From: Macrocystis pyrifera
Taxonomy: Eukaryota > Sar > Phaeophyceae > Laminariales > Laminariaceae
Length of the DNA stretch: 64,000 nucleotides
Assembly: GCA_031763025.1 (NCBI GenBank)
Contig: JASSKH010000001.1
Location: 9,109,024-9,173,023 of the forward strand
Direction of reading: 5' to 3'
Of the stretch, positions 1 through 49,610 are shown piece by piece. The stretch's first letter is position 1, and every line of letters begins with the position of its first letter. Position numbers and translations under genes: made by a program. Under the pieces are notes generated by a model. It did no database searches and was not told where the DNA came from. It was given only the letters and a program-made list of their open reading frames with translations.

Positions 1-1060
1 CGGCGCTCCGCGGACGCTTCACGCCAACTCGGAACTGTTCCTCTGCCGTGCAGTAGTTTTGTTTTCAATTCGCCGTCGAAACTAGAAACTCGCATTCGCT
101 GGCATTACTGTACACGTACGGGTGCGGTAGAGTGGTCCTTCTTCATAGTAGTACCGGTTTAATGTTGCCGATGCCTGATGTAATATGTCGGTGAAACTAT
201 ACGGCACATATGGGATTGACCAGTGTGGCGGTGTGCAGAATAATCCAGGTGCCGGTGTGTTGGCCTGATATTTATAGCACATACCGGGATCATAAAGGGA
301 TGCGTCCGCTACAGTAGTAGTAAAGTACACGGGTACCTGGTATGGTACGATGCGTTGTAGGGTACCTGGTTGGGCGTAAGAGGGAGGAGGGGCCGGGAGG
401 AGGAGGAAAAAAAAAAAACGGACGTGCTGTTGTTTTTGACGTGTTTTTCTTACGAAATGAGACGAAGTGAAGGAAATGGCATGTGACCCAGCCGTCGTTC
501 CTCTTGCCCCGATTAAGCTTGGGTGTCGAAGTACCTGTGTGTCTGAGCTGGCGTATGGGTGCCTTCGCTTGTGTTGAGTCCGGTTCTGCTGGGGTTGCTG
601 GCCTCCGCCTGGTTCGGTGTGTTTTGCCTCTTCTGAGTTTATATGGGTGGAGCGGCACGACTGCGTGAAACGGCACACTATTGTATGACACGACGCAGGG
701 AAGTGTGAAACGGCACGGGTTGAGGCGGGAAACGCGACTGGCGAGTGGTGTCGTGTTTCGTAATATCGGCCAAACGAGTGTACCGAGCGGATTCACGTGC
801 GTCTTGAGGCAGCCGAACGCCGTGGTGCCCTTTTTTTTGTGTGTTTTGTCGTTGTCGATTCGAAGTCATTGTCGAGCGGCCCGGGGGCCGCTCAACTTGT
901 AATGGTCTAGTTGGCTTACCAGCTATTGTATACCGTATCAGCACTTCGGTTCCGCTCAAGCAAGCGGAGGGTGGCTTCGAAACGTGACTCGTGCTGTTAT
1001 TCCGTTCATCGAGCCATGTTTCTTTCCATCAGTTTTTCAACTTTTGTGTGCGCTGCGTCC
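1..1060. other. No recognisable gene
   Basis: Open frames occur on both strands but none has a recognisable motif, and those overlapping the A-run near 405 are low complexity. The sequences GGTACCTGGTATGG (near 330) and GGTACCTGGTTGG (near 360) belong to a short motif that recurs across the window. Confidence 0.5.
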
Positions 1061-1074
1061 GCTCGGCTCAGCCC

Positions 1075-1175
1075 CCACCGTACCGTACCCTACCCAACCC
1101 TACCCTGCCCTGCTTGCCATGCGCTTACTTTATGCCTGTCCTTACCTTGCCTTGCCTTGCCTTATCTAGCCGTAT
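1075..1175. repeat. Pyrimidine-rich pentamer repeat
   Basis: Imperfect CCTAC / CCTTG pentamers in tandem (TACCGTACCCTACCC, then CCTTACCTTGCCTTGCC). A related CCTGGCCTGGCTTGG tract lies at 1425-1475. The open frames here are produced by the repeat. Confidence 0.6.
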
Positions 1176-1849
1176 CTCCTGTTCGGCTTGCTAAGCAATA
1201 CGGTATTTACTACCAGGTACTCTCGTTTTATTGTCCAAGGTGTGCAAGTTTACTTCAGTTATGTTTGTAGTCTACCGTCGAATACTGTTTTTTTTTGGGG
1301 GGGGGGGGGGGTGTTCTTTCACTCCAGAGTTGCTTGGAGCGTATCTTAAGACCACCGGCTAGACTATGGCGATGCGTCGATGTTAAAACAACATGAACAG
1401 CAACAACTACAACAACGTGGCCCTTCCCTGCCTTTGCCTTCCCTGGCCTGGCTTGGCTTGGCTTTGTCTGGCCTTCGCTGACATGGCGGTTGCTCGCGTT
1501 GCTGTGCACAACTCACCCGTCTTTGTTGGACCGCTTTGGCCCGCAGGGTCGGTCGCTTGGTGGTGCAGTGGGTGAACACACGGCTTACGCCACGCACGGA
1601 CGAGGAGTGCAAGTGGAATTGGTGAGTTTTCGTTAGATGCCGATCGAAGGAGGCGTGTTGTCACGTTTTGTTGGGGTAAATATGAAGTACACAGCACCAA
1701 CATAACTTTCGTGCTTGTGTGTACGTACGGCGAATGGGCGCTCGTTGTGTGAGTGTGTTTCCGCTGCACGATAGACGCAGCCGTGGGCGTGAAAGCGACG
1801 CCGGCAGTAGCTAAACAGTAGTATTAATATAATAGTAGTATTTAAACTA

Positions 1850-1957
1850 TTACGGGGGACCGTAGTAAATAGGTCCCAAATGTTGTCGGTAAAAATAGGT
1901 AAATATATAGGTTTTTGTGTGTGTACCATAGGTCCTATTTACTATTGTCCCCCGTAA
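1850..1957. mobile_element. MITE-A, full copy
   Basis: Palindromic ends TTACGGGGGAC...GTCCCCCGTAA flanked by TA on both sides. The inner arms read toward GTAAATAGG / CCTATTTAC and the centre is AT-rich (AAAATAGGTAAATATATAGG). About a dozen complete or partial copies lie in the left 43 kb. No coding capacity, so a non-autonomous DNA element. TA flanks fit a Tc1/mariner-like or other TA-targeting transposase, but the autonomous partner is not in the window. Confidence 0.8.
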
Positions 1958-1974
1958 TAGTTTCAATACCACTA

Positions 1975-2228
1975 TTGGCAGTATTAGCAGTAGTAGGTCC
2001 AGTAGCAGTATTGCCAGTAGCAGTATTGCCAGTAGCAGTATTGCCAGTAGCAGTATCGCCAGTAACAGTATTGCCAGTAGCAGTATTGCCAGTAGCAGTA
2101 TTGCCAGTAGCAGTATCGCCAGTAGCAGTATTGCCAGTAGCAGTAGCAGTATCGCCAGCAGCATTATTGCCAGTAGCAGTATTGCCAGTAGCAGCAGTAG
2201 CAGTATTGGCAGTAGCAGTAGCACTATT
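1975..2228. repeat. 15-bp minisatellite
   Basis: About 16 copies of a 15-bp unit TTGCCAGTAGCAGTA with small variants (TCGCC for TTGCC). Because 15 is a multiple of three it gives long artefactual Leu/Ala/Val or Thr/Ala/Asn frames on both strands. No other sign of coding. Confidence 0.9.
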
Positions 2229-2259
2229 GGCACTATGCACAGCCACAGCTGTAACACAC

Positions 2260-2745
2260 CGATAAAAAGACCTAATCGTTACGATTTCGATAATATTCGA
2301 TGTAATACCAGGGTGCCGTACAGGTAGTACGTAAAAGAAAAAGCACGTTCAGCCCGCATGACATTAGCCCGCGAAAAAACGGCGACGCTGGCAGGGAGGG
2401 GATGGGTTGCACAAGGTATACCACCAAGATAAGTTGTCGGCACGATGTCCAATACGCCGCAGTAAGTACGTGGCCGACTATTTTTGCGTTACCCCCCCGA
2501 GGTATTATCCCACGTCTCGGACGGACAGGTCATGATCTATCTAGATCACCAAAATTCCTAGCATAGTACTACAGATCCAACCCAGCCAACACGCCCTTTT
2601 GTAGGCCATGCAGGTAAATCGTTCAAGATCGATTCTATTGATAGATCTATCTGCCTTGAAATATGTAGATCATCCAGGGGGGATCGATGATCTGCCGGAT
2701 GATATGTCCGAGCTGTGGAGTATTCCAACCTACCAATGGTGGTAG
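2260..2745. other. No recognisable gene
   Basis: Unassigned unique-looking sequence between the 15-bp minisatellite and the G tracts. It contains several GATC/TAGATC-rich stretches near 2530-2690. No motif seen. Confidence 0.4.
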
Positions 2746-2746
2746 G

Positions 2747-2837
2747 GGGGGGAGTCTGGGGGGGGGGGGGGGGGGGGGGGGGAGTGTACTCAATATCATG
2801 CATGGCCGTTGTCATATGACCATAGACCCTCGGGTCT

Positions 2838-2921
<84 letters not shown>
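2747..2921. repeat. Long poly-G tracts
   Basis: Three G runs: about 2759-2782, 2838-2874 (37 G) and 2877-2921 (45 G), broken only by the short R-type tail and a TT. Such runs are expected to form G-quadruplexes. Gly and Pro frames through them are artefacts. Confidence 0.9.
2783..2838 (-). mobile_element. Retroposon R, 3' end only (minus strand)
   Basis: Read on the minus strand this gives GAGGGTCTATGGTCATATGA, an ACGGCCATGCATGATA-like stretch, then TGAGTACAC and a C run. It matches the last ~50 bases of retroposon R (see 13123-13610). Only the 3' end is present, as expected for 5'-truncated retroposition. Confidence 0.65.
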
Positions 2922-2923
<2 letters not shown>

Positions 2924-3068
2924 CCCGCGGATTTTCTTCCTGGCCACAGATGACTGCTGAACCTATATTGTCAGATTTTCGATTTTTTTTTTTTTTTTTT
3001 GTGTTGGTGCGGTCCAACTTGCTTCCTTGCGGGACGGACCTCGTTCCGATAATTTCTGCCGAGGAGCC

Positions 3069-3328
3069 GTTCTACGATAGAGGTTCAAGCCTAAATTTTT
3101 TGAGGCTCCTCACTTGACCTTAAGGAGCGCTATCCATACCTCACCCGAAAACCGACTTCAGCCGAAATCAAACTGCATCCCGATGAATAATCCCATGGCC
3201 CCAAGCATACGGAAATGTATTTTTTTTCGAAACAAAGATTTTGGTATTCCGACGGCTTTTGGGTTAAGGAGCCCCCGTCATTCAGAAAATGTTTTAGCGG
3301 ACATGTGCTACCACCTCTACCGTAGAAC
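3069..3328 (+). mobile_element. MITE-C, copy 1
   Basis: A 260-bp segment bounded by 16-bp inverted repeats GTTCTACGATAGAGGT and ACCTCTACCGTAGAAC. The interior includes GACCTTAAGGAGC, CACCCGAAAAC and ATCCCGATGAATAATCCCAT. The same element lies in reverse orientation at 37177-37423. No coding capacity was recognised, so a non-autonomous TIR element is the best label. Confidence 0.7.
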
Positions 3329-3559
3329 GCGTCTGCCGCCGCGCGTGCGTGTTTGTGCCCCGTGCGTGGTCTGTGCTGGAAGAGCCTGAGAGGAACCCGA
3401 CGGTGCCGTAAAGCGCACGCACCGAGCGTCGCACCCGGGGTATACCACCCGAGGCCCGGGTGCATCTGCCACATATCCCAACCGGTATTGTGTCGGCAAG
3501 CATCCAAGCGTGTTTTATCGCTCCCCAGGAGTGCGTTTATGGTAGGGTGGGTGTACGCT

Positions 3560-3940
3560 CTGGTGTACCCGGGTGCGAAACCCGGCTGTTCATGATCGTT
3601 TTTCTCGGGTACCGAACCTGGTTGCTACATGGTCATACTCGGGTACCAAAACCTGGCTGATATGGTAATACTCGGGTACCAAACCTCTTTTTTTTTTTTT
3701 TTTTTTTGTCATCCTCGGATATCAAGCCTGGAGTTTTATGGCCATCCTCGTGTACCAAACCTGGTTGTCAGGGTGGTACTCGGGTACAGACCAAACCTTG
3801 GTTGGCATGGTCGTACTCGGGTACATACCAAAGCCTGACTGTTATGGTCGTACTCGGGTACATACCCAACCTGGTTGCCTGCCATGGCCATGTTCGGGTA
3901 CAATACATACTCGGGCACAATACGTACTCGGGGTGTACCC
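3560..3940. repeat. Minisatellite, unit about 36-45 bp
   Basis: About nine degenerate units each containing ATGGTCGTACTCGGGTAC followed by ACCAAACCTGGTTG-like sequence. A T run interrupts it near 3687-3707. The units carry GGTACC and CCTGG, relating them to the ACCAGGTA motif seen elsewhere. Confidence 0.75.
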
Positions 3941-3979
3941 TCGGGGAGGAAATTCTGAATTGAATAAACAGGGGCGTCC

Positions 3980-4245
3980 GTGAAAAAAAAAAAAAACGAC
4001 ACCCCCAGAGGTCGGAATGGAAAAAAAAAAAAAAAAAAAAACACCCCAAAAAATAAAAAAAAAAAAAAAAACCGTTGCAACCGTTGTGATCACATGATGA
4101 AGTAACAAAAAATATCTTCTTTTTTTCCTTTATTTTTTTCATTTTTTTTTCACTTGGTTCTAGCAACCCCCCCCCCCCCCCACACACACACCTCCCTGTC
4201 TAGCGAAAGAAAATTCTGTGACGGTTCACATTTTTTTTTTTTTTT
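3980..4245. repeat. Homopolymer cluster
   Basis: Successive A runs (3982-4070), T runs (4119-4151), a C run (about 4167-4180) followed by (CA)n, and a further T run (4231-4246). Phe/Lys-rich frames here are artefacts. Confidence 0.85.
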
Positions 4246-4412
4246 TCCGGGCGCGCTTGACGTGAACACCTTTTTTTGTGGTGCTGTGTTCTTTTCATGG
4301 CGAGGGCGGTCGGTCGGCGTTCCCCGCGTCAAGCCAGAACAGTTCGGGTGGATTCTCTGGTCCTCGGCACACCTTCGTGGCTGCAGCACGCTTCGCGCTC
4401 TCGCTTAGCCTA

Positions 4413-4478
4413 TTACGGGAGACCATAGGTAATAGGACCCACGGCACACACACTCATATAAATACAACTATAATTACG
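4413..4478. mobile_element. MITE-A, partial copy
   Basis: One arm only: TTACGGGAGACCATAGG followed by TAATAGGACCCACGG, (CA)n and CATATAAATA. The second arm is missing or decayed. It lies just upstream of the C-rich putative exon at 4722. Confidence 0.6.
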
Positions 4479-4721
4479 ATTTTTGAGGTCGTTGTCACTT
4501 GCTAGCTCTTCGCAGACAGACCGACTGATAGACAGCTCTTCGCAAACAGCCCTTCTTCTTTGAAACAGCCGAACAGCCAAACAACCTTTCTTCTTTCTTC
4601 TTCGCCAAATAGCCATACAACCTTTCTTCTTTGTTCTTCCGCAAACTGCCAACCAATAGACAGCTCTTCGCACGGCGCCTAAAAGAGGCGTCTCGCCTTC
4701 GACGAACGGCATAGATAGGTG

Positions 4722-5090
4722 CAGCTGTCGGCGTCCAAGCTGCTGCTGTCGGTGGCGAACCTGCTGGTGCTGCAACCCCCGCCTCTCCCTTCTCCACGCC
4801 CCCTAAGCTCACCTCCCCCTCGTCGAGAGGCGCGTGGTCCTCGCCCTCTGGCAAGAGAGCGGCAACGACAAAGACCGACCTGGTGCCGGCTGTTGTTTGC
4901 GACCAGTGCACGGACCAGCACTTGGTCAAGAACTCCGCGCCTGGTGGCAAAAAAACGTGGCCTTCGCCACCAGCAAGGATCTCACGTGCGTGGTGGCGGG
5001 ATCATCCTGACAGGGCAACCGACTGCCAGTTCTGTGCTCGCCCGATCAAGGAAGGGACTGTCTCGTACTCCCTCGAGACTGCTGACAGTG
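4722..5090 (+). CDS. Putative exon, cysteine-containing, unrecognised protein
   Basis: An open block ending at a good donor (G|GTGAGT at 5091). The reading frame gives a Pro/Ser-rich segment, then a C-x2-C (CDQC), an ARG/TRP-rich linker, and a second C-x2-C in the stretch DCQFCARPIKEGTVSYSLE. C-x2-C-x3-I-x-x-G resembles the first half of a PARP-type zinc finger; the W-x-H...C half is not seen before the donor. An in-frame stop just upstream (4712-4714) means the exon must start at an acceptor, for example after GCAG near 4723. Exit phase is 1. It precedes other Cys-rich blocks but no partner with matching phase was found, so membership in the same gene is inference. Confidence 0.35.
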
Positions 5091-5359
5091 GTGAGTGTCT
5101 TATGTCTATTGTGCATGCTGTATGTTGCCAGTACGTTTTTTTTGGGGGTTTTCAATTGCCTTTTTGCATACAAACCTAAGTCAAAGCGTTTTTTTTTTTT
5201 TTGACTCATCCATGCTCGTTCTTGCTCCCCTTTCCCCCCTTCGTGCGTTGCGTCGGCTCCTCTTACACTCAGTGCACGCGAACGCGCACATGCACAATTG
5301 TTTGCGGGACGTGAACGAAGGAACGGAGGATTCAGCTGTCGCCGTCACCGCTGCACCGA

Positions 5360-6850
5360 ACGACGTGAGTGCTGCTGCTACTGTGGTGCATTTTCGGTGC
5401 ATGCACACGATTTCTGTGTGTACATGTTTGGGTGACCTCACGTACTCATTTTGCTCGTTTTCGGCTGCCGCTGCTGCTGTGCTGCTGCAGCTGTCAGCGC
5501 CACGCCATGAGTGCTGCTGCTGCTGTGCACCTGCTTCTCCTGTGCACTCGCTGCTGCTGTAGTGCTGCTGCGTTGTTGCCGTGCTGTGCACCTGCTGCTC
5601 CTGTGCAATTGCTGCTGCTGTATGTAGTGCTGCTGCGTTGTTGCCGTGCATCATGCTGGAAGCGTACATATTTTCGGATCGTCAATTCCGTAGGTTTTGC
5701 GATGGCGGCATACCAGGGTACATGCTTTTTTTCTTCCTTATTTTCATATCGTTGCTATGCTGCTGCTGCTGCTGCCAACGCTGCCAACGCTGCGGCGATT
5801 CGTTGCAGCTTCTGCTGCTGCTAATGCTGTAGCTGCTTCTGCTGCTGCTGCTGCTGCTAATGCTGCCGCAATATCCACTGAATGTTCGTATGTACTCGGA
5901 TTACTGTCTTTCTTGGTCGTTTTTGTACTCAAATGGTTCCTTTTGATACGTGAAAAAATATTTTTGTCGTTTTGCTCCTGCATTTTGCGTACGTACTGCA
6001 ATTTCTCGTTTTTGGCTTGGTTATTTTCATATATATATATCGTTGCTATGCTGCTGCTGTGCTGCTGCTGCGTTGTTGCCGTACATCATGCTGCACTTAC
6101 TTGTGTGTGTACATATTTCGGTATCGTCAATGAAATTCCGTAGGTTTTGCGGTTGCGGCATACCAGGGTACATACTTTTTTTCTTCCTTATTTTCATATC
6201 GTTGCTATGCTGCTGCTGCCAACGCGGATTATTGTTTTTATTAGCCATTTTTGTACCCAAATGGCTTTTTTGATACGTAAAAAAAATATTTTGGTCGTTT
6301 TGCTCCTGCTTTTGCGTACGTACTACTTTTTCTCGTATTTCGTGTTGTTGCTATGCTGCTGCTGCGTTGTTGCCGTACAGCATGCGGAGGTGGGTCTATA
6401 GTGAGGTACCAAAAATACTTTTCGGACGGCCTCGGGGTACATACGTTTTTTCTCCCTTCTTTTCATATCGTTGCTATGCTGCTGCTGCCAACGCTGTGGC
6501 GATCCGTTGCTGCTTTTAGTGCTGCCGCAATATTCACTGAATGTTTGTATGTACTCGGATAATTGTGTTTCCTGGTCGTTTTGTGGCGCTGGTGCGTTGT
6601 TGCCGTACATCATGCTGGACATGATTTGTGTGTCTATTACACTTAAACTTGTGCGTGTGTACATATTTCTGTATCGTCAATGATTTTTTTTGTGGTGCTG
6701 CTGCGTTGTTGCCGTACATCATGCTGGACGTGATTTGTGTGTGTACTGTACTACACTTGTGTGTGTACATATTTCTGTATCGTCAATGAAATTACGTACT
6801 TGCTGCTTCTGCTGCTGCTGCTGCCGTCGTATAGCAAGCGATTACGTACT
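5360..6850. repeat. CTG-rich compound repeat region
   Basis: Short (CTG)n runs embedded in larger repeated modules. One is TTTTCATATCGTTGCTATG followed by CTG repeats (near 5740, 6030, 6190, 6460). A second is CTGCGTTGTTGCCGTACATC (near 5628, 6065, 6590, 6698). A third is CGTCAATGAAATTCCGTAGG. They recur at irregular spacing, so this is a scrambled higher-order repeat rather than a simple microsatellite. Leu/Cys/Ala frames are artefacts. It sits between two putative exons and could be intronic. Confidence 0.75.
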
Positions 6851-6961
6851 GCTGTTGTGCCGCTGTAGAGTAGTACAAATAATGAACTCTGCCCCCCCCT
6901 CCCCCCCTCCCCCCTCCCCCGCCATTCCCTGCACGCCACTCCCGCCCCGCGCACCCTATAT

Positions 6962-7482
6962 GTTTACTTCGACCAGGTCCGTGGCAAGTGCTACAACTGC
7001 CGCCTGAGGGATTCCACCATCAAAGACGGAGACATCATCATCAAGCGCAAAAAAGACTCCCTTCCATTTCGCCTGCTCCAGGGCTTCACGGAATTCCGAA
7101 GCAGTACACCAAGCAGATTGTCGCCATCCAGGACGAACGAAAGGAAACAAATTGTTTGCCACATTTCCCAAAATCACGATTATTTCTTCCTACACATAGC
7201 CAACGGGTTCAACGGCGAACAGATCCACATTCTGGGCCTCCCGCCTCGTTACTACAGCATCCTGGAAGACTATTTACATATATATATATCATGTCTCATC
7301 CAAACTCCTATGCTGGCTACATCGAAATCGCGGCCGCCCAGCAACTATACAACATTTCCATAACCGTTGTCGTTGCCGGCACTGCTGCTTTCTCTCCTGT
7401 CCCAAACCTTCCTTTAAACAACAGCCTGTATGTTGTATATCATCCACGTGCCAAGCACTACTCCACTCTCTCCCCACACTGA
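6962..7482 (+). pseudogene. Zinc-finger-like plus OTU-like coding fragment
   Basis: The first frame (6962-7363) begins GKCYNC and continues through IKDGDIIIKRKK, a C-x2-C ... I-x-D-G-D pattern like half of a PARP-type finger. It then runs into HIANGFNG ... YYSILEDYLH. After an (AT)n run at 7275-7290 the next frame (to the stop at 7480-7482) reads SYAGYIEIAAAQQLYNISI and later AKHYSTL. These match the C-terminal part of OTU cysteine proteases (G-G-x2-E-L-x-A, I-x-V, then H-Y). Aligning YFFLHIANG with the usual CLFRAIA puts Tyr where OTU has its catalytic Cys, while the late His is kept. An inactive or decayed OTU domain, interrupted by the AT microsatellite or an unseen intron, is the best reading. 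AATAAA lies at 7565. Confidence 0.42.
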
Positions 7483-7564
7483 TGAAATATGTTATTCTTA
7501 TTATTAGACGAATGTCATTCTTACTCTTGCGTCACCCGATCTTACGTTTCACATTACATTCATA

Positions 7565-7570
7565 AATAAA
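7565..7570 (+). promoter_or_regulatory. Candidate polyadenylation signal AATAAA
   Basis: AATAAA 83 bases after the stop of the OTU-like frame, in AT-richer sequence. Position fits a 3' untranslated region, which supports a real gene end here. Confidence 0.4.
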
Positions 7571-7705
7571 CGCGATTATTACATCCTTCACCGTTTCTTA
7601 CACAAATACATTTAGTTTGGTTGGCTTTGGCTATGTCGCCAATTAATTGCAGTTATATGTACACGAAACGACGGAATACCCACTCCGAAGGAAAGCCTTG
7701 TATTT

Positions 7706-7756
7706 CCATATTTTTACTAGCAGTATTTGGTCCTATTTTACTATGGCCCCCCGTAA
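7706..7756. mobile_element. MITE-A, partial copy (right arm)
   Basis: TTTTTACTAGCAGTATTTGG then TCCTATTTTACTATGG and CCCCCCGTAA. The left arm is absent. Confidence 0.65.
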
Positions 7757-7970
7757 TAGGAAAAAAATCGAAGAGAGTGACGATGGTATAGGGGTGCACC
7801 TGTGTACATTCCTTTTTTTTTCTTTTTTTTTTTTTTTCTCGGGGTCTCCTCGCTTGTGGAGCTTTATGCTACGTACTACAGTAGTAAATCAGTTAGTAAG
7901 TCACCCGAAAACTGACTTTCTGAGAAAATAATGAACAACAAAATGGCCCACCTGTTATTCAGGTTACAAA

Positions 7971-8010
7971 CAGTAGGTAGGTACGTAGGTACGTAGGTAG
8001 GTAGGTGTAC
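7971..8010. repeat. GTAG/GTAC tetramer microsatellite
   Basis: Tandem GTAGGTAGGTACGTAGG. Confidence 0.8.
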
Positions 8011-8740
8011 AAGGGATATCACGTTCAACAAAAACATGGTACTCCAGCGATTTTTTTTGTCTCCACCGAGCTCGGAAAATCAATAATCGTGTTCACTTAC
8101 TGCGTTATTCACCATACGAGTACGACGCCGCTCTCTCTCGTAATATATCACACGGGTACGACCTCGTGCACCCCACCTTGCGCTTAAACAACATTGGGTA
8201 GGATTCCTCGATTACCCCTTTTAGGACCGCAGTCCAGATTCGGGGGTTAAGGAGGCCTCGTCGGTCAGTTTTTTTTTTTGGCGAAAATTGGCTGCGACCC
8301 CTATCATAGGGTGTCGCTGTCGAACCCCCCCCCCCCCCCCCCCCTCTCCCCCCGCTCTACCGCGCTCAATACGTGCCTAGCGTAGCGTACCGGCCGCTTC
8401 ATAATGTATTCCTGGTGCCAGATGCCAGATTTTGTTTTTTGTCGAGCAAACGCGTATGTACGACAGGTCTCAGCTGTCTTGCCTCACCGACGGTCGCTGC
8501 CCCTTATTCGTTCGTTCGTTCCTTTTGTTCGTTCCTTTGTTGGTTCGTTTGTGTTTTTCAATCGTTTTGCCCCAGACAGTCTTTTGCTTTGGTTGATGTT
8601 GTGTTTTTTTTTTTACATGTTTGCCCCGCCGACAAATGTGTCGTGTTTTTTTTTTTGTTTTTTTTTTTTTTTCAAAATTAATGTGCGGTGCGGTTCCTTC
8701 CTTTCCTTCCTTGTATTTTCGTTTTTGGTTTGTTGTTCAG
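8010..8740. other. Unassigned, homopolymer-rich
   Basis: Contains a T run (8271-8279), a C run (8327-8344), GTTC tetramers (8509-8550) and long T runs (8647-8672). The last 40 bases (TTTTCGTTTTTGGTTTGTTG then TTCAG) form a good polypyrimidine tract and acceptor for the exon at 8741. No gene recognised. Confidence 0.5.
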
Positions 8741-8897
8741 GGGTCGTTGGAGGTGCGACCCCCAGTGCTCGTGCGTGTACAAGTACCGGTTCGGAGACTA
8801 TGCGCCCGGGAGATCGTGCCGCCTCAGGCCCCCGGGCGAACGCGGCCTCCAGACATGCGATCCAGAGGCGGGAAACGATGTGTCGCTGCTAGAAAAA
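8741..8897 (+). CDS. Putative internal exon, cysteine-rich domain copy 1
   Basis: Flanked by a pyrimidine tract with TTCAG (acceptor, ends 8740) and a GTGAGG donor (8898). One frame is open: entry uses one base from the exon plus two from upstream, and exit is on a codon boundary. It encodes a Cys-rich stretch with R-W-x-C-x-P-x2-S-C, then V-Y-K-Y-R-F-G-D-Y-A-P-G-R-S-C-R. The same spacing of residues appears in the product of joining 10249-10411 to 13897-14184, with mostly synonymous codon differences. This is the strongest sign of a real host gene in the window. I do not recognise the family. Metal binding by the Cys residues is inference. A PARP-type or other small zinc module is possible. 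Confidence 0.55.
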
Positions 8898-9642
8898 GTG
8901 AGGGTTCTGGGAGGCAGGATGGGGGGGCGAGGGGGCGGGGCAGGGGGGTCGCAGGGGATTTCCCTTTGCTGTTGTTTTCGGCCCCCATACAGCCCTATTA
9001 AAGTATGGCCGACTTGCTTTGGACAAAGAAAGAGGGAGTTTTTGTGAGTGGGTTTTTTTTTTTTTTTTGTTTATTGTTTTTGTTGTTTCGTTCGCCCGGC
9101 TGGAGGCTGGTGCCCTCTCGGTGCTCGCGCGCGCTTGGTGATGGTGGTTTGCTGGATTCGTGCGGGGGGGGCGGTTTTGATGGACAGCGCTTCGTTCTGT
9201 GCTCTGTGGCGCGCGCGACCATGTTGGCGTGTCCATGTTGGTGTGGCCGTGTTGGTGTTGACGCATGCCTTTCGAGTTGTCTCGCCTTACAGCTTCCAGC
9301 CCGAATGAACAGACGGTGTACTTGGGAGAGTGTGACCAGGACTGCACCGTTGCCGGTTCCTCACCTGCACGTTGGGTGGCGCAGACTCAACCATCGCCGT
9401 TTCTTCCTGCGTACGTTTTTTTTGTTGTCGCTGTGGCGCAAAGCGCTTTTCGTCCGGCGTGTTCCGGACGCGTACCCGGTGGTAACGTCGCAATTGTTGA
9501 TGAGATCAGTGCTGCCACCTGGCGGTGCTGTACATGATGTGGTGGAGCTGTTGCTTGCAGGACCAGCCACGGCAATAACCACAGCGGCATCGGGGCAAAC
9601 ATTTAGTGCGCCGCGGTTGTATCCCCCTCCCCCCCCCCCGCG

Positions 9643-9775
9643 CCAATGTCTGCCCGGTCGGTGAACACACGACGCGCTCCGTCCCGGCATTGTAGAGATG
9701 TGAGGGTCTATGGTCATACGACTACGGCCATGCATGATAATGAGTACACCCGCCCCCCCGCCCCCGCCCGCCCCT
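9643..9775 (+). mobile_element. Retroposon R, 5'-truncated copy
   Basis: Begins CAATGTCTGCCCGGTCGG and runs through CCGTCCCGGCATTGTAG, GAGGGTCTATGGTCATACGA and AATGAGTACACC into a C-rich tail. It lacks the first ~300 bases of the element, as expected for 5' truncation during target-primed insertion. Confidence 0.7.
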
Positions 9776-9952
9776 TTCTTTTATCTCTTGCTCCCTTCTG
9801 TATTCCCTCTCGCCCTCTCTGTCATTCCATGTATCCCTCCCTCTCTTTGCGTCTTGCTGCGTCCCTGCCTTTTCGTGTCTTCACCACGTTTGGCACCTCG
9901 CCTTCACCTGGTTGAAACTGTTTCCTGAAGAAGCGACACCCACACTTTGCTC

Positions 9953-10205
9953 TCAACACCTGCGCCTGACATTTGCACTTACTTCTCACTTGCACTTGAA
10001 CTTACACTTGCACTTGAGCTTACACTTGCTCTTGAACTTACGCTTACAGTTACACTTGTGCTTGCACATACAGTTACACTTACACTTGTACTTACACTTA
10101 CACTTACACTCATACTTTCGCTTAAACTCACACTACCACTAACACCAACACTTACACTTACATTTGCTCTCACACTAAGACACACGCAATTCACACACAC
10201 ACTCA
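9953..10205. repeat. Hexamer minisatellite (ACTTAC / ACTTGC)
   Basis: About 40 six-base units TACACT/TGCACT, grading into CACACA. It lies just before the acceptor of the exon at 10249 and is therefore probably intronic. Leu/His/Thr and Ser/Val frames through it are artefacts. Confidence 0.85.
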
Positions 10206-10248
10206 CTCTCACACACCCACGCGTCTCGTTCGTTGCAATTTTCCGCAG

Positions 10249-10411
10249 ATTGGCGTCGTTCGTGGCCAAGTCGGCCAAACGCACCTGGCGCTTCACGGCA
10301 GAGAACGTGATCCCTCAGACCGACAAGGATTGCCGCTTCTCCCTGGCGCACAGCCTCGAGGAGAAGCGCTTTGTCTGCTCGCCGAGGAGATCGTGCGCCT
10401 TCCACTACAAG
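10249..10411 (+). CDS. Putative internal exon, first half of cysteine-rich domain copy 2
   Basis: Acceptor CAATTTTCCGCAG ends at 10248 and donor AAG|GTGATG starts at 10412. The open frame enters with one base and exits on a codon boundary. It encodes TWRFTAENVIPQTDKDC, then EEKRFVCSPRRSCAFHYK. R-F-x-C-x-P-x2-S-C-x-F-x-Y-K matches R-W-x-C-x-P-x2-S-C-x-Y-x-Y-R of the exon at 8741. Copy 1 continues with FGDYAPGRSCR; here the continuation FGDVHPGRSCR is found at the start of the exon at 13897, in the right phase. The upstream partner is not settled: exit phase of 8897 does not fit, so another exon (possibly starting after TTACAG near 9288) would be needed. Confidence 0.55.
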
Positions 10412-10548
10412 GTGATGTCTCACACTTGCCATTGCCGTCGTCCAGTGTAGTTCGCAGTACAATACGCTCTCACCAGGTACTTCGTAAGACAGTACACTAA
10501 ATGTATACATACTCTAGGCCGAAATAGCACAGAATGCGCTTGATACTA

Positions 10549-10770
10549 TTGCGGGGGACCATAGTAAATAGGACCTACGGTGGACACAAAAAACCTATAT
10601 ATATATATATCTATTTTTACTATTACGGAGGACCATAGTAAATAGGACCTACTGTGCACACACAAACCTATATATTCCCCTATTTTTACTAGCAATAGTT
10701 GGTCCCATTTACTATGGTCCCCCGTGATAACAATATTTGGTCCTATTTACTATTGTCCCCCGTAATATCT
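10549..10770. mobile_element. MITE-A, compound cluster
   Basis: Two left arms (TTGCGGGGGACCATAG at 10549 and TTACGGAGGACCATAG near 10621) and two right arms (ending CCCCCGTGATAA near 10727 and CCCCCGTAATA near 10767). Either nested insertion or unequal exchange between copies would produce this. Confidence 0.7.
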
Positions 10771-10784
10771 ATAGGAAAAGTACA

Positions 10785-10850
10785 CTATAAATACCACTCT
10801 TATCCCGAAATTACTAGGACATTTTAACGGTAATGTTCAGGACAAGCGGT
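10785..10850. mobile_element. MITE-B, degraded partial copy
   Basis: TACCACTCTTATCCCGAAATTACTAGGAC resembles the left end of MITE-B (CCACTCTGACCCGAAATATA). The right end is not clear. Confidence 0.35.
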
Positions 10851-10949
10851 CATTATATGCAGGGGCTGGCGTGGTACTTCGCAGTACAGCACACCTATAA
10901 ATCAGCACTGCGGGAGTGGTTGCCGCGGCAGCACCGTCGACTGCATTTT

Positions 10950-11053
10950 TCGGGGGACCATAGTTAACAGGATCTACGGTACACACAAGAACCTAAATAT
11001 TTACCTATTTTTACCTACAATATTTGGTCCTGTTTACTATGGACCCCCGCAAT
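10950..11053. mobile_element. MITE-A, full copy
   Basis: Left arm TCGGGGGACCATAGTTAACA, AT-rich centre ACCTAAATATTTACC, right arm TGTTTACTATGGACCCCCGC. Both outermost ends have drifted. Confidence 0.7.
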
Positions 11054-11381
11054 ACGACGACAACCGTTGTGTACTGCAGCAGAGTTGAACTGAGACGCGA
11101 TGACCTCTCTGTTATTGTAGGCGTAGGTGTGGTGAGGTTGGATTTTTTTTTTTTTTTTTTTTTGCCCCACCCGAGGAAAAAAAAGTGGAAACGAAAAAAC
11201 AAAAAAACAAGTACCAGGTAAACGGGTTAACCTCGCAAGCGTTGGTGCATCGGGGCAAGGCTCTGCCTTTGCAAGGCCAGGCCCCTCCCGGGGGTCGGTC
11301 GTGTCGTGTTTTCGCGACTGTGCAACAGAAAAGCGAACAGAAATGTACACCGCGCGAGTTTTTTTCTTCTTGTTGTATTTT

Positions 11382-11520
11382 TTGGAAACGACGTAATGAT
11401 AGAGGCCCAACTGTTGGAGGTGTCTCTATTTGGCGTAGGAAGCGTGCTCCGTCTCGATCGGCGTGCGTACCATTGGTAAAATGCGTAAGACAAGCCACGA
11501 GCGAGTACCCCCCCCTCTCC
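11382..11520 (+). mobile_element. LINE, 3'-terminal fragment
   Basis: Encodes WKRRND then TVGGVSIWRRKRAPSRSAC in one frame, matching the end of the LINE at 34255-35475 (WKQRNE...VGGVSIRSRNGAPSRKGC). Just as there, it finishes with GAGTAC and a C run (11503-11515). Extremely 5'-truncated. It abuts the T run that starts retroposon R copy 1. Confidence 0.7.
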
Positions 11521-11521
11521 T

Positions 11522-12040
11522 CTTTTTTTTTTTTTGGCGGTTGCCACGGCTGGCGGTCAAGTTATAGATCATTTTTTTGCGGGGAGAACCTTGGTACTCC
11601 GCACAAGGGGGGATTATCGTATCACGTACCACTCTGACCCGAAATATAGGGACCGTTAGCATATAATCGCTCAATCAAAATGGTCCTTATATTTCGGGTC
11701 AGAGTGGTACCAGGTATTGTGTTGTACATGGTGAGACACCCACGAGGCAGTTACATAGTAAACCCGTTGCTGTCTCTGGAAGTGGCCACACCAGAAATTA
11801 AATCAGTTCATTGATGCTGTCATCCATATGCAAGAAAATCCGCCTCTAAAGCGCGGTTCTTAGTAGGATGCAGCTCACCTTTCACGCGACTCGCCGAACA
11901 CCTCACGGCGCTTAGCGTGCGCTTGGTGCAAGCAATGTCTTGCCTGGTCGGTGAAAACCCGACGTGCTACTCCGTCCCGGCATTGTAGGGATGCGAGGGT
12001 CTATGGTCATATGACTACGGCCATGCATGATAATGAGTAC

Positions 12041-12071
<31 letters not shown>
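11522..12071 (+). mobile_element. Retroposon R, full copy carrying a MITE-B insertion
   Basis: Starts T(14)GGCGGTTGCC, and continues through GCTGTCTCTGGAAGTGGC, GCGACTCGCCGAACACC, CCGTCCCGGCATTGTAG, CTACGGCCATGCATGATA and AATGAGTACACC into a C run. The copy at 13123 lacks the inserted segment 11629-11707. No ORF was recognised. Pol III boxes are not evident, so its class is uncertain. In the opposite orientation the T run would be a poly-A tail, but the truncated copies always keep the GAGTAC/C-run end, which argues that this is the 3' end. Confidence 0.7.
11629..11707. mobile_element. MITE-B, intact 79-bp copy
   Basis: Near-perfect terminal inverted repeats starting CCACTCTGACCCGAAATATA, 26 bp long with one mismatch, flanked by TA on both sides. 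The paralogous retroposon R copy at 13123-13610 has an empty site (ATCACGTAGTG) here, so TA was the target and was duplicated. This is diagnostic of Tc1/mariner-type (Stowaway-like) insertion. Confidence 0.85.
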
Positions 12072-12074
<3 letters not shown>

Positions 12075-12146
12075 CCCCCCCCCCCTCCCGCCTCCCGCCC
12101 TCCCTCCTCCTGCCGCACCTGTTCCCGGACGTACGCTACGGCAACT

Positions 12147-12180
12147 ATTACGGGGGACCATAGTAAATAGAACCATGTAG
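12147..12180. mobile_element. MITE-A, single arm
   Basis: TTACGGGGGACCATAGTAAA and a short extension, directly before the MITE-A array. Confidence 0.6.
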
Positions 12181-12185
12181 TGTTA

Positions 12186-12572
12186 TTACGGGGGTCCATA
12201 GTTAACAGGACCTATGGTATACATAAAAACCTCTATATTTACCTAGCTGGGTAACTATGGTGTACATAAAAACCTATATATTTACCTATTTTTACTGATA
12301 AAATTTGGTCCCGTTAACTATGGACCCCCGTAATAGTAAAACTAGGTAAATATATAGGGTTTTATTTACCTATTTTTACTAATAAAATTTGGTCCCGTTA
12401 ACTATGGACCCCCGCAATAGTAAAACTAGGTAAATATATAGGGTTTTATTTACCTATTTTTACTAACAAAATTTGGTCCCGTTAACTATGGACCCCAGTA
12501 ATAGTAAAACTAGGTAAATATATAGGTTTTTGTGTATACCGTATGTCCTATTAACTATGGACCCCGTGATAA
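12186..12572. mobile_element. MITE-A tandem array, 84-bp period
   Basis: One left end (TTACGGGGGTCCATAGTTAA) followed by several repeats of CTATTTTTACTAATAAAATT then GGTCCCGTTAACTATGGACC and CCCGTAATAG. TTAACTATGG recurs at 12314, 12398 and 12482, an exact 84-bp step. The element has been amplified in tandem while sharing its terminal repeat between neighbours. Confidence 0.8.
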
Positions 12573-12732
12573 GGGGACGACTAATTTTTTCACGCTCCTT
12601 CCTCCCTCGAAGAGCCCCTAAACCTTTCAGGACTGCAAATGCAAATCCCGTTTTGGAGACAAAAAAAATGCTTGAAATTTGAGTGGTTTGTCTCCCAAAA
12701 CGGGGCTGACTGCAGTTTTGCCCTAAATGGGT

Positions 12733-12738
12733 TGATGG

Positions 12739-12768
<30 letters not shown>
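12733..12768. repeat. A homopolymer run
   Basis: About 30 A residues. Flanking TTTTGGAGACA / TTGTCTCCCAAAACG form a loose inverted repeat at 12645-12700. Confidence 0.6.
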
Positions 12769-12770
<2 letters not shown>

Positions 12771-12838
12771 GGCCTTAAGAATGAACGAAAGTGCAAGACC
12801 CTCCGAGAAAATCCCGCGACCTGTATATGAAGGTGTAC

Positions 12839-12926
12839 AGCACACTCTGTCCCATGATAGTAAGGAGGGTGTGGATGACATGTTAGTAAACAAAATGGTT
12901 CCTTTCATTTCGGGACACAAAGGTGG
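12839..12926. mobile_element. MITE-B, diverged copy
   Basis: TA-flanked; left end CAGCACACTCTGTCCCATG, right end TTTCGGGACACAAAGGTGG. Size and layout match 11629-11707 but the ends have drifted. Confidence 0.5.
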
Positions 12927-13122
12927 TAGCGGAACAGTATCGTTGAAAAAAAAACGCAAGTAGCATGCCAATAATATTTTTTTGAGTAGCTCCGCGCGTA
13001 AGGACCCCCCCCCCCCCCCGCCCTACTCTCTATATATGTTATATATGGGTTGGGTTGGCGTCGGTTGGCAACGACACTGTAAAACATGCCGCTCACTACG
13101 TGAGCTAGACATCCAGGTTACC

Positions 13123-13561
13123 TTTTTTTTTTTTTTTTGGCGGTTGCCCACAGCTGGTCGTCTAGTTAGATCATTTGTGCGAAGTAAAGAACCTTTACTC
13201 TGTGCAAGATAATTGATCGTATCACGTAGTGTTCAAGGTAAGGCACCCAAGAGGCACTTACATTGTACTCCCATTGCTGTCTCTGGAAGTGGCTACACCG
13301 GAAATTAAACTAACTCATTGAAGCTGTCATCTATATGCAAGTCCGCCTCACCAGCGGTTCTTAGTAGGATGCAGCCCACCCTTCATGCGACTCGCCGGAC
13401 ACCTCACGGCGCTTCGCGATTGGTGCAAGCAATGTCTGCCTGGTCGGTGAAAAACCCGACATGCTCCGTCCCGGCATTGTAGGGATGCGAGGGTCTATGG
13501 TCATACGACTACGGCCATGCATGAGATCGAGTACATCTCTCTTATTATATCGAGTACACCG

Positions 13562-13610
<49 letters not shown>
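13123..13610 (+). mobile_element. Retroposon R, full copy (reference, no insertion)
   Basis: T run (13123-13138), GGCGGTTGCCC, a ~400-bp body, CCGTCCCGGCATTGTAG, GGTCATACGACTACGGCC, GAGTAC, a short extra segment with a second GAGTACACC, then 49 C residues (13562-13610). It shows the pre-insertion state of the MITE-B site in copy 1. The duplicated GAGTAC suggests slippage at the tail. Confidence 0.75.
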
Positions 13611-13616
<6 letters not shown>

Positions 13617-13896
13617 ACACGACAAAAACCTCGGTCGAAATGTTGTACAGTATCATGCCCCCTTGTCGTACATACGTAGCACGCATCCCCCTGTTTCGTG
13701 CACTGGTATCGCAACCTCGCGCTTTATTTTAGCTCTTTGTTATCTCGCCCCCAAGAAACCGTTTGTTTGTTTGTTTGTTTGTTTGTTTGTTTTTTTTTTT
13801 TTTTTTTTCTCCCGCTCCGTTGTTCTGTTGGTGTTGTGTCGTGTTGTGTTGTGTTGTGTTTGTTTGTCTATGTCTGTGTCGGGATCAACGTTACAG

Positions 13897-14184
13897 TTTG
13901 GTGATGTGCACCCCGGTCGATCTTGCCGGCGACGGAAAGCCGGCGACGAGTTCTCCCGAGGCGTCGTGAAGGCAGGCAAGGGAAGCAGCAGCAGCGGCGG
14001 CAGCAGTAGCAGCGGCGGCGGTGGTGGTGGTGGCGGCGTCGGCGGCGGCGATCGCGGAGGGCGCTGGTCGATGTTCGACGGAGGGGAGAAGAGCGGTCGC
14101 CAAGATGAAGAATACGAGGAGTACGATGATGACGATAGAGAAGAAGGGTTCTTTGACTACGAGGAGGACGATTATCTTTTGTAG
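13897..14184 (+). CDS. Putative terminal exon, completes cysteine-rich domain copy 2 and has acidic tail
   Basis: Starts after TCAACGTTACAG in phase 0 and ends at TAG 14182-14184 (96 codons). The first residues FGDVHPGRSCRRR match FGDYAPGRSCRLR of the 8741 exon; of the shared residues, most use different synonymous codons (TTT/TTC, GGT/GGA, GAT/GAC, CGA/AGA, TCT/TCG), as selection on protein would leave. Then come a Ser/Gly-rich linker (residues about 28-50), a basic patch, and a very acidic C-terminus (EEYEEYDDDD ... YEEDDYLL). An acidic, flexible tail often mediates protein or histone contact, but the function here is unknown. Confidence 0.6.
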   Translation, partial: FGDVHPGRSCRRRKAGDEFSRGVVKAGKGSSSSGGSSSSGGGGGGGGVGGGDRGGRWSMFDGGEKSGRQDEEYEEYDDDDREEGFFDYEEDDYLL

Positions 14185-44200: not shown

Positions 44201-45580
44201 TCAAATATTCGTCAGAAAATCCCGGTGGTAACGAAACACCGTGTTGTTGAGCGGCTTTGTCAAGAAGTCTGCATGCTGTTTCTCCGACTCTACATGGGTA
44301 ATAACAAACTCCCCCTTAAAAATAAGCTCGCGCAAAAAGTGGTGTCGTACGTCAATGTGCTTCGAATTCGACGTGCACACTGGATTTTGTGCCAGGTGCC
44401 TTGCCCCCTCGTTGTCCTCGAAAACCGTAACACATCTCTCCCCAAACCCCGGAAAAATAAAACTCCATACATAGCGCATGAACATTGCCTCCTTGATAGT
44501 GTCTGCCAGTGCTACATATTCGGCCTCAGCGGTTGAGAGTGTGACGCATTTCTGCGTCCTAGAAAACCAGCACACACACGCCCCAGCACACATGATAGCC
44601 CCACCGGAAACTGACCTCCTGTCAGTGGCTTTGTTGGCATAGTCTGCATCTGCAAACGCTACCAGCTCAAGCCCGCTACCCTTCTGGAACGTAATGCCGA
44701 AATCACTCGTAGAAAATACATACTCTAAAATACCGACTGCTGTCTTCCAGTGTACTTCCCTCGGCCTATTCGTGTACCTCGCTACCGCCCTCACCGCGTT
44801 CGCAATATCCGGTCGTGTTTGGTTCGCTAGCCACATCAAGCACCCCACCAAATCGCGGAAAGGCCAATCACCCACGGGCTCATTCTCGTCAAACTCCTCG
44901 AGCTTCACACCAGTCGAAAGCGGGTTATTCCTCCCAGAACTAACACCAAACCTCGCCGCGGTATTTTCAGCGAACGCATGCTGCGAAATCGTCAAAGTAC
45001 CAGCATCCCAATCCCTCGAAAAACAACAACCAGCATACCACCGCAACTCGCCCAGATTGTTGATCGGAACAAGGTTGTTCAGGTCTTCACAGAACTGATC
45101 GCATCTAGCCTTGAGTCCTACAGCAAAAATATCATCCACATGAACTACCGTTACAATGGAGTCAGAGCCCGACTCGACCAACCTCATGACACACGCGTCA
45201 GCGGGGCTCTGCTCAAATCCTAGACTCTTCATGTGAGTGAGAAGGTGGTTGTGCCACGACCTCGACGCTTGCTTCAAGCCGTAGAGACTGCGATTCAAAC
45301 TGATTACCTTACCAGACATTTCGCCGCAGCCGGGGGGTAGTCGCATGAATACATCCTCATCCAAACTCGATTGCACGAACGCCTGCTCAGCATCAAAATG
45401 ACACAAATCCAAACCCAACTCGCACGCAATAGCACCCAACAAACGGAAACAAGACGCTGCAGGTGTCGGAGCAAAAGTTTCAAAGAAATGAATACCCTCA
45501 CGCTGCTTGAGACCTCGTGCCACCAGCCTTGCTTTCGCCCGCACCACGTCACCATGCTCGTTGGACTTCCAGGCGAACAC
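44201..45580 (-). CDS. Copia reverse transcriptase and RNase H block
   Basis: Starts KSNEHGDVVRAKARLVARGL, the usual start of the copia RT domain. It contains VHVDDIFAVG (catalytic x-x-D-D box), LNRSLYGLKQASRSWHNHL, and an RNase H region with ADADYANKATDRRSVSGG, TLSTAEAEYVALADTIKEA and SKHIDVRHHFLRE. This is the best-preserved part. In the element it makes cDNA from the RNA copy and removes the RNA strand. Confidence 0.95.
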   Translation of the reverse strand: MFAWKSNEHGDVVRAKARLVARGLKQREGIHFFETFAPTPAASCFRLLGAIACELGLDLCHFDAEQAFVQSSLDEDVFMRLPPGCGEMSGKVISLNRSLYGLKQASRSWHNHLLTHMKSLGFEQSPADACVMRLVESGSDSIVTVVHVDDIFAVGLKARCDQFCEDLNNLVPINNLGELRWYAGCCFSRDWDAGTLTISQHAFAENTAARFGVSSGRNNPLSTGVKLEEFDENEPVGDWPFRDLVGCLMWLANQTRPDIANAVRAVARYTNRPREVHWKTAVGILEYVFSTSDFGITFQKGSGLELVAFADADYANKATDRRSVSGGAIMCAGACVCWFSRTQKCVTLSTAEAEYVALADTIKEAMFMRYVWSFIFPGFGERCVTVFEDNEGARHLAQNPVCTSNSKHIDVRHHFLRELIFKGEFVITHVESEKQHADFLTKPLNNTVFRYHRDFLTNI

Positions 45581-46156
45581 CCACTTCGCCGAGATGACGT
45601 TGAGCCCCTCTGATTGCTACGTCGCTCCACACGTCCCCGCGTCCGCCAGCCCATGGTACCCCTTGTCCATTGCCTGTCTCCAGATGGCCGAATACTCGTC
45701 CGCACACGCTTCAGCGTACGAGTTCGGCGTCGAGAGCTCGCTCGCCGGGCGTGTGGGAAGGGGAGGGTTCTCGCGCGGTGGGGCTTGGTGGAAAAGTACA
45801 TGGCCTATACCTTCCCGTGCTGCCATCAACGACAGCAGCCCATGCCCCATAGCCTCGCGGTTCCGCGCAGTCTCCCCTCTCGTCCGCCCCCTCAGCACAT
45901 CTCCACCTTCCGGGTGTCGCCCAGCTTCCCCCCTGGCCCGATTACCCTGCACACCACCACCACCCTCCTGGTGTCGTGCAGTCTCCCCCCTTGTCCGCCC
46001 CCTCAGCACATCGCCATCCTCCGGGTCCGGGATATAAGGACCCAGTGCCCGGGCAGCACGCTACGAAAGCTGTGGCTGCGGTGATTGCTGCGGCAGCGAC
46101 GGCGATGATAACGGCGGCGGCGGCGGTGACGGTGGCTGTAGCGGCGGCGGTGACGA

Positions 46157-47050
46157 TCACGGCGGCAGCGACGGCGACGGTGACGGCGATGGCGGCGGCG
46201 ACGGCGACGGCGGCGGCGGCGGCGGCGGCGGTAGCGGCGGTGATGACGGTGGTTGCGGCGGCAGCAGTGGAGATGGGGACGGTGGCTCGGGCCATACGTC
46301 GGGGCCCCTCAGAGGCTCCGGCGCACCCGGCGGCGGTGGCGACGGCGACGGTGGCGGCGGGGAACTCTCCTCCTCCGAAGGCAGAAACCCCACAAACGGT
46401 TTCCTCGGGTGTTCCCAAGTGACGTCACGGGAGAACGACATCCGGCCAGACATCAGCAGGATCTTGCTGCAGTCAGCTGCGTGGTGGTTGCCGCCGTTGA
46501 GGTAGAAGCAAGCCTCCGCTTTCGGCTCGGTCTTCAGGGCCCTCCTGACGTGGTGGAAGCCCGGCTTCAGAAACGAGAGCAGCCGCGCAAACGGTGGTCT
46601 CCCGTAGAATTTGCGGTACGGCGAGTGCATTTTCGGCTTGTCCCTTACCCTAGCCGTCATGTTGATCACATCGCTCGCGTACACGCATGACTCAGCCCAG
46701 AGGGGCTGAGTCGCCGGCATCCTTGCATCGCCGAACAGGCAGGTGGCCTCCAGGCGAGACGCCATTGCAAGCTCCAGCGTCATGGCGATCCGTCGCTCGA
46801 CCACCCCGTCATGCTTCGGAGAATCGACGGGCGTGTACTCGCGGCGGATGCCGTGGTGGTTGAGCAACTCCACGAACTCCGCCTTGGTGAACTCGGTGCC
46901 GTTGTCCGAGCGAAGGCACTCCACGATGGACGGCACACCCTTCGCGTTGATGTCGGCCAGGAAACCAGCGAAGACCTTCGGGACGTCGGACTTCCGCTTC
47001 AAGAAATACGGCCACCCCAGTCGCGAGTAGTCGTTGACGATCATCATCAA
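46157..47050 (-). CDS. Copia integrase core block
   Basis: Carries DDYSRLGWPYFLKRKSD, CLRSDNGTEFTKAEF and DSPKHDGVVERRIAM, so the D-D-E residues of a retroviral-type integrase core are visible. A Pro/Ser-rich tail from a GGC/GGT repeat follows. It would join the cDNA into host DNA. Confidence 0.92.
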   Translation of the reverse strand: MMMIVNDYSRLGWPYFLKRKSDVPKVFAGFLADINAKGVPSIVECLRSDNGTEFTKAEFVELLNHHGIRREYTPVDSPKHDGVVERRIAMTLELAMASRLEATCLFGDARMPATQPLWAESCVYASDVINMTARVRDKPKMHSPYRKFYGRPPFARLLSFLKPGFHHVRRALKTEPKAEACFYLNGGNHHAADCSKILLMSGRMSFSRDVTWEHPRKPFVGFLPSEEESSPPPPSPSPPPPGAPEPLRGPDVWPEPPSPSPLLPPQPPSSPPLPPPPPPPPSPSPPPSPSPSPSLPP

Positions 47051-47140
47051 GTACTGCGCACCGCCAGCAGATGTAGTCTGTTATCCCGACAGATCCACGA
47101 ACAGACGCTCCAGAGGCCTGGTAGAACGGCACTCGGTCGT

Positions 47141-47665
47141 TCACGGCACCGCCATCCTCCTCCCTTTCGCCTCAGAACACCCAGCACACGGAACCAACTC
47201 CCCAAAAACCTTAATGCCTATCTGGCGTGCCGTCTCACGGAGAGTGTCAGCATGGGAGTGGGCAAGGGCAACGTGAAGGTCGTTAATATCGATCCTCCGC
47301 ATTTTTCCAGGAGCCAAAACAACGGCAGCAATCGGGGTCTCTACAATCCGCGTGGCGTCTACGTATGAACCCGCGTCCCTACGCACGAAAGACAGCTGTC
47401 CATTCAACGTGTGAGCTCCCTGAGCATCAAGTGTCACCGGGCATTTCAACATTACTGCATGAAGCGAAAATAAGTTGAAGCGAACACCGGGTACGTATGC
47501 TACGTCCATCAGCCTAACTTGAACGTCACCCTGAGAGCTGTGCATCACAATTGGAATCTGGCCGAAGTGCTCTATCTTCAGTGACCTCAGGTCACCGACC
47601 ACCAAACGTCTCTTACCAGGGGGAGGGAGAGTACAGTTTACCATACCAAAAGGGTTACCAGTCAC
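47141..47665 (-). CDS. Copia protease / pre-integrase block
   Basis: Contains GNPFGMVNCTLPPPGKRRL, VRLMDVAYVPGVRFNLFSL (protease downstream region) and a GAG-pre-integrase zinc segment, H-x-H-x...C-x2-C (ALAHSHADTLRETARQIG then CAGCSEAKGRR). The D-S-G-A protease site lies just before this open block. Confidence 0.88.
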   Translation of the reverse strand: MTGNPFGMVNCTLPPPGKRRLVVGDLRSLKIEHFGQIPIVMHSSQGDVQVRLMDVAYVPGVRFNLFSLHAVMLKCPVTLDAQGAHTLNGQLSFVRRDAGSYVDATRIVETPIAAVVLAPGKMRRIDINDLHVALAHSHADTLRETARQIGIKVFGELVPCAGCSEAKGRRMAVP

Positions 47666-47688
47666 ATGAAAGGTTGCTCCCGAATCCC

Positions 47689-48219: not shown

Positions 48220-48245
48220 GGCATCCCAACGCCATTTTGGGCCGG

Positions 48246-49553: not shown

Positions 49554-49610
49554 CTCTCTAGGTTGGCCTTGGCTACGCTTGCCAATAGAAGATCGCCGGA
49601 CTCACTAGTG

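Follow-up and report, generated by a model that had tools for sequence, protein, structure and literature searches.

A probable split gene for a secreted protein with two tandem cysteine-rich domains in the brown alga Macrocystis pyrifera

In this study we analysed a stretch of 64,000 nucleotides of Macrocystis pyrifera (assembly GCA_031763025.1, contig JASSKH010000001.1, positions 9,109,024 to 9,173,023), hereafter the window. We found that it probably holds the 3' portion of a genuine brown algal nuclear gene with multiple exons, encoding a protein of ~320 residues with two tandem cysteine-rich domains that are not catalogued. With considerable confidence, a real and probably functional gene for a secreted two-domain protein is the most likely explanation of the data. 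Judging from its sequence, the protein would consist of a probable signal peptide, a short charged helical stretch, the two domains, a Gly/Ser linker and an acidic tail; its secretion, its disulphides and its ligand are likewise predicted.

Gene structure

All exons were assigned to the plus strand, and their splicing is inferred from reading frames and splice signals (a slash marks exon-intron borders below). Exon E3 (1547..1621) encodes the linker helix and the N-terminal half of domain 1 (VGRLVVQWVNTRLTPRTDEECKWNW); it lies between a cccgcag/ acceptor and a /gtgagt donor and is in phase 2 on both sides. It is followed by a putative intron inside domain 1 (1622..8740), which is repeat-rich and 7.1 kb long, with a phase 2 donor (TG/gtgagt) and a phase 2 acceptor (ttcag/G). 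Exon E4 (8741..8897) encodes the C-terminal half of domain 1 and a linker, starting in phase 2 and ending in phase 0. Its translation opens with GRWRCDPQCSCVYKYRFGDYAPGRSCRL... and carries CDPQCSCVYKYRFGDYAPGRSCR, and the exon is flanked by ttcag/ and /gtgagg. Between the domains a putative intron of 1.35 kb (8898..10248) has donor and acceptor phases that disagree as assembled. Exon E5 (10249..10411) continues the linker and supplies the first part of domain 2 (LASFVAKSAKRTWRFTAENVIPQTDKDCRF...CSPRRSCAFHYK), closing with ...VCSPRRSCAFHYK/gtgatg. The putative intron inside domain 2 (10412..13896, 3.5 kb) follows the GT-AG rule with phase 0 on both sides and is full of short inverted-repeat units resembling miniature inverted-repeat transposable elements (MITE-like). 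Finally, exon E6 (13897..14184) begins after acag/ at 13897 with FGDVHPGRSCRRR..., which ends domain 2, and contains a Gly/Ser stretch, the acidic tail and a stop codon at 14184.

The original prediction, made from the letters of the window, had proposed the exon at 8741-8897 and the joining of 10411 to 13897, and both are present: frames, GT-AG borders and phase 0 on both sides agree, and E5 and E6 joined read CSPRRSCAFHYK/FGDVHPGRSCR across the junction. It had also described the second domain copy as the one that is split. The 3.5 kb intron of that copy stands, while the first copy turned out to be split too, by 7.1 kb, because the N-terminal half of domain 1 sits in the exon at 1547-1621.

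The repeated domain

That the same domain occurs twice is borne out by several comparisons. Between CDPQCSC...PGRSCR and CSPRRSC...PGRSCR, 14 of 23 aligned residues are identical, and 8 of these 14 are encoded by different codons, in agreement with the earlier statement that the shared residues mostly use different ones. When the core of E4 (RFGDYAPGRSCR) was compared with the plus strand frames of the window, the self-match scored 70, the E6 site 52 and the next-best position 26. Among 500 shuffled queries the highest score was 42, so that the second PGRSC copy scores above every control, and the best minus strand match was 26. In a search of the genome, the domain 2 peptide also recovered the exon at 8741-8897 (E 4.7e-5).

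Domain 1 of the window protein contains six cysteines (residues 115, 124, 128, 130, 145 and 158) and domain 2 contains four (199, 214, 220 and 235); all ten cysteines outside the signal peptide fall within the two domains. The domain region is basic, with an isoelectric point (pI) of 9.62, and the tail encoded in E6 is indeed acidic as predicted (pI 4.05).

A paralogue in the same genome

The whole assembly (537,376,219 bases in 223 contigs) was searched with the joined domain 2 peptide. Six places were returned. Three are exons of the window and one lies on contig C211 (E 0.006); the remaining two are weak (E 0.5 and 1.2), do not contain the motif and were attributed to chance. The only other copy recovered in this way is an unnamed paralogue on C211 (about 14867697-14871779; loci L004, L007 and L008), which has two tandem domains, so a homologue exists within the same genome. 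Its second exon reads VPPTDAECDFNWSRLRCEPKCLCGARLRFGDYTPGRTCRL, continues through most of the second domain copy and ends LKFR/gtgagg, and the next exon opens with /WGDLTPSGACRL. After the exons of both genes had been joined by hand, the window protein and the paralogue were identical at 59 of 175 positions (34%, E 3e-27 in a single comparison), across both domains.

Both genes have a hydrophobic N-terminus and tandem domains of six and four cysteines, an even number that is conserved. After the second cysteine the spacing is 4-2-15 in both domain 1 copies and 6-15 in both domain 2 copies. The domain 2 intron is also common to them, at FHYK/FGD in the window gene and LKFR/WGD in the paralogue, in phase 0 in each. 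That the paralogue intron lies at the same residue and in the same phase is the strongest argument for the proposed 10411/13897 join. The claim that a real protein with a repeated cysteine-rich domain is encoded here is therefore supported by a paralogue with both domains, by most of the cysteine spacing and by the domain 2 intron.

The two genes also differ. In the paralogue, a single exon holds domain 1 together with most of domain 2, and the two other introns that interrupt this region of the window gene are absent from it. The domain 2 intron is 1.06 kb long there and 3.5 kb in the window gene. Furthermore, the paralogue has its acidic low-complexity part in a long exon at the N-terminus, whereas the window gene has it in the C-terminal tail. 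By inspection, the first paralogue exon (L007/L008, C211 about 14867697-14869402) encodes a hydrophobic N-terminus followed by >500 residues of acidic, Gly/Ser/Asp/Glu-rich low-complexity sequence.

Domain 1 is 51% identical between the two genes; over 39 codons, 24 residues are identical, 11 of them by different codons. Both domain 2 copies are less alike to the paralogue domain 1 (28% and 36% identical). These pairwise identities suggest that duplication of the domain preceded that of the gene. The third and sixth cysteines of domain 1 are jointly absent from domain 2 in both paralogues, which suggests that they may pair with each other.

The upstream part of the gene

Domain 1 of the paralogue starts with PPTDAECDFNW, whose counterpart is missing from the exon at 8741-8897 and is present at 1547-1621. 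Indeed, of all places in the window exon E3 matches the paralogue peptide YVLTRTVPPTDAECDFN best, with a score of 47. Within 1-8740 none of 1000 shuffled peptides reached this score (maximum 41), and on the whole plus strand none of 500 did (maximum 42); the next plus strand match to the paralogue peptide is domain 2 itself, with a score of 36. A stretch at 5000-5100 (RATDCQF) had been considered as the upstream half of domain 1 and was abandoned, as 1547-1621 scored best.

Ahead of the window, two further exons fit in phase, matching at phase 2. One (L009 6846-7001, about -3154 to -2999 in window numbering) encodes a helical, charged segment and is partly covered by the paralogue alignment. 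The other, E1 (L010 8996-9120, about -11004 to -10880), encodes MARGWLYAACVVMLVLAAGTGGGTVEAS... with a hydrophobic N-terminus. The gene start, with the signal peptide, would probably lie ~11 kb ahead of the window. The deduced gene spans ~25 kb and has six exons, and more exons may exist. Over 15 residues the Kyte-Doolittle maxima of the putative N-termini of the window gene and the paralogue are 2.21 and 2.56, which is a measure of hydropathy only.

Functional or degraded gene

Some observations weigh against the reading as a real gene for a secreted two-domain protein. As assembled, E4 and E5 are one base out of phase, the donor at 8897 (AAAAA/gtgagg) being in phase 0 and the acceptor at 10249 needing phase 2, and a mismatch of this kind would also fit a recent pseudogene. 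Exon E1 was assigned from its hydrophobic N-terminus, phase and position alone. The gap between the first and second cysteines is 15 residues in domain 2 of the window gene, compared with 9 in each of the three remaining copies, and a few more cysteines occur outside the domains in the first paralogue exon. In addition, AlphaFold gave a low to middling mean predicted local distance difference test (pLDDT) score, 45 for the 125-residue exon and 67 for domain 1 alone, and a PDB search with the domain model gave no convincing fold match.

The main rival explanation is that the gene was recently degraded or silenced, leaving genuine exon remnants, a frame broken between the domains and introns swollen by repeats. 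The one-base phase mismatch of the best E4/E5 splice sites would agree with it, as would repeat-rich introns of 7.1, 1.35 and 3.5 kb. We consider this unlikely: apart from the final stop, the assigned exons contain no stop codon, all other junctions are in phase, and the cysteine pattern is intact in both domains. The mismatch itself falls at a run of five A, and assembly length errors are common at homopolymer runs. Moreover, canonical in-frame alternatives exist at this point. Donor 8897 with acceptor 10271 costs seven residues, donor 9043 with acceptor 10249 adds about 49 residues, and donor 8881 and further phase 2 donors can also be joined to acceptor 10249. The mismatch may be an assembly length error in the A run, a real frame break or the sign of an alternative splice site.

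The comparison with the paralogue bears on the same point. From the last Cys-Arg-Leu of domain 1 to the shared Leu-Ala-Ser, the linker is 24 residues long in both proteins (counted by eye with the E4 and E5 translations side by side), and the paralogue alignment passes the E4/E5 point ungapped. Because of these equal linkers and the ungapped alignment, an ancestral join of E4 to E5 is likely.

We also noticed, at 9038-9050, a strong-looking donor (TTTTT/gtgagt) right where the open frame of E4 stops. It is in phase with E5 and may be an alternative end of the exon. A further exon was considered near 9293 (ECDQDC) and rejected, as its phase, examined by hand, does not suit E4 and no corresponding segment is present in the paralogue.

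Known families and folds

The domain had been proposed as undescribed, and the searches agree with this: no Pfam or NCBIfam model reached its cut-off for the protein, and a Pfam-A search of the four domain copies, run with the HMMER filters on and accepting E values up to 10, returned no family for any of them. Some matches outside the cysteine domains were below cut-off or at chance level (DUF4294, TNFRSF11B death domain and the Rv0361 C-terminus), as was the designed protein 7upo in the helical stretch (E 0.76). The scanned viral contigs contained no relative, and neither did the prokaryotic genome contigs, scanned with one peptide pattern. In the literature on brown algal cysteine-rich secreted, orphan or matrix proteins the family was not met, in a search by words only, sequence not being searchable there, which is no proof that it is unpublished.

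A different reading would be that the domain is no new fold and belongs to the apple/PAN type of carbohydrate- or protein-binding modules, in very diverged form. A profile built from the four copies matches 2ll3 (micronemal protein 4), which we take to be an apple domain, at E 0.022 over 51 positions, a weak match that serves as a lead only. In the apple/PAN fold a helix packs against a curved beta-sheet and the disulphides follow the apple pattern; the AlphaFold model of domain 1 (mean pLDDT 67) predicts a helix followed by short strands. Nevertheless, the silence of Pfam for all four copies and the PDB result for the model already mentioned argue against this assignment, single-sequence PDB searches with the domains were empty, and the helix preceding the first cysteine carries no cysteine. 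In addition, the same profile matches a Myb chain at E 0.53, so that chance level is near. Apple/PAN membership seems distinctly improbable.

The EsV-1-7 motif is C-x4-C-x16-C-x2-H. A pattern search found it neither in the window protein nor in the C-terminal 155 residues of the paralogue, and membership of this family was rejected. Like the window protein, the members of the EsV-1-7/IMMEDIATE UPRIGHT cysteine-rich family (PMC7457493, PMC12993054) are brown algal proteins of unknown function that carry a repeated cysteine-containing motif.

Possible role in the cell wall

A tentative idea about the working of the protein follows from its charge, its probable secretion and what is generally known of brown algal walls. 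Once secreted, its disulphide-held, Arg-rich domain pair (pI 9.6) would bind an anionic polysaccharide of the wall (alginate or a sulphated fucan). The tail, being acidic (pI 4.05), would bind calcium or mask the basic face. We regard this secreted polysaccharide-binding role as a possibility with the odds against it. A broader proposal, somewhat more doubtful, is that the copies represent an uncatalogued family of secreted brown algal domains that would organise or sense the anionic, calcium-gelled cell wall, each with a helix, short strands and two or three disulphides, occurring in tandem with an acidic segment at either end.

Our analysis indicates that a split gene in a repeat-rich genome can be recovered by reading raw sequence, and it makes available a four-copy profile of a domain that no Pfam entry matched. 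Should the domain prove common among brown algae, it would be a candidate constituent of their wall or secretome, about which little is known; otherwise the protein would be a further example of a lineage-restricted secreted protein.

Repeats and genomic surroundings

The gene had been described as hidden among repeats, and this description fits. E4, E5 and E6, the exons compared, have no repeat match elsewhere in the window, and the introns are repeat-rich: the share of the sequence with matches elsewhere in the window is 24% for 1622-8740, 10% for 8898-10248 and 48% for 10412-13896, the last of these introns holding 79 inverted-repeat pairs. Within the window, the exons stand as unique islands in repetitive DNA. 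The window contains 135 open reading frames of at least 100 residues and long spurious ones are abundant, yet that the exons are chance frames with a coincidental motif is extremely improbable, being contradicted by the paralogue with both domains, the shared intron position and the shuffle controls.

Scans of the window for transfer RNA genes (bacterial code) and Rfam families gave none. By eye, 10547-12565 contains many short MITE-like inverted repeats around TATTACGGGGGACCATAGTAAATAGGACC; a similar stretch lies at about 1844-1960, in the intron 1622-8740, and also matches near 21.8 and 42.9 kb. A further repeat occurs at 11723-12095 and 13230-13613 (82% alike), with a partial copy near 21.1 kb. 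Downstream, long open reading frames on the minus strand at 44204-49601 look like a copia-type long terminal repeat (LTR) retrotransposon, with reverse transcriptase/RNase H, integrase, protease and zinc-knuckle gag, and those at 61065-63098, also on the minus strand, resemble the integrase portion of a second LTR retrotransposon; both were judged by eye.

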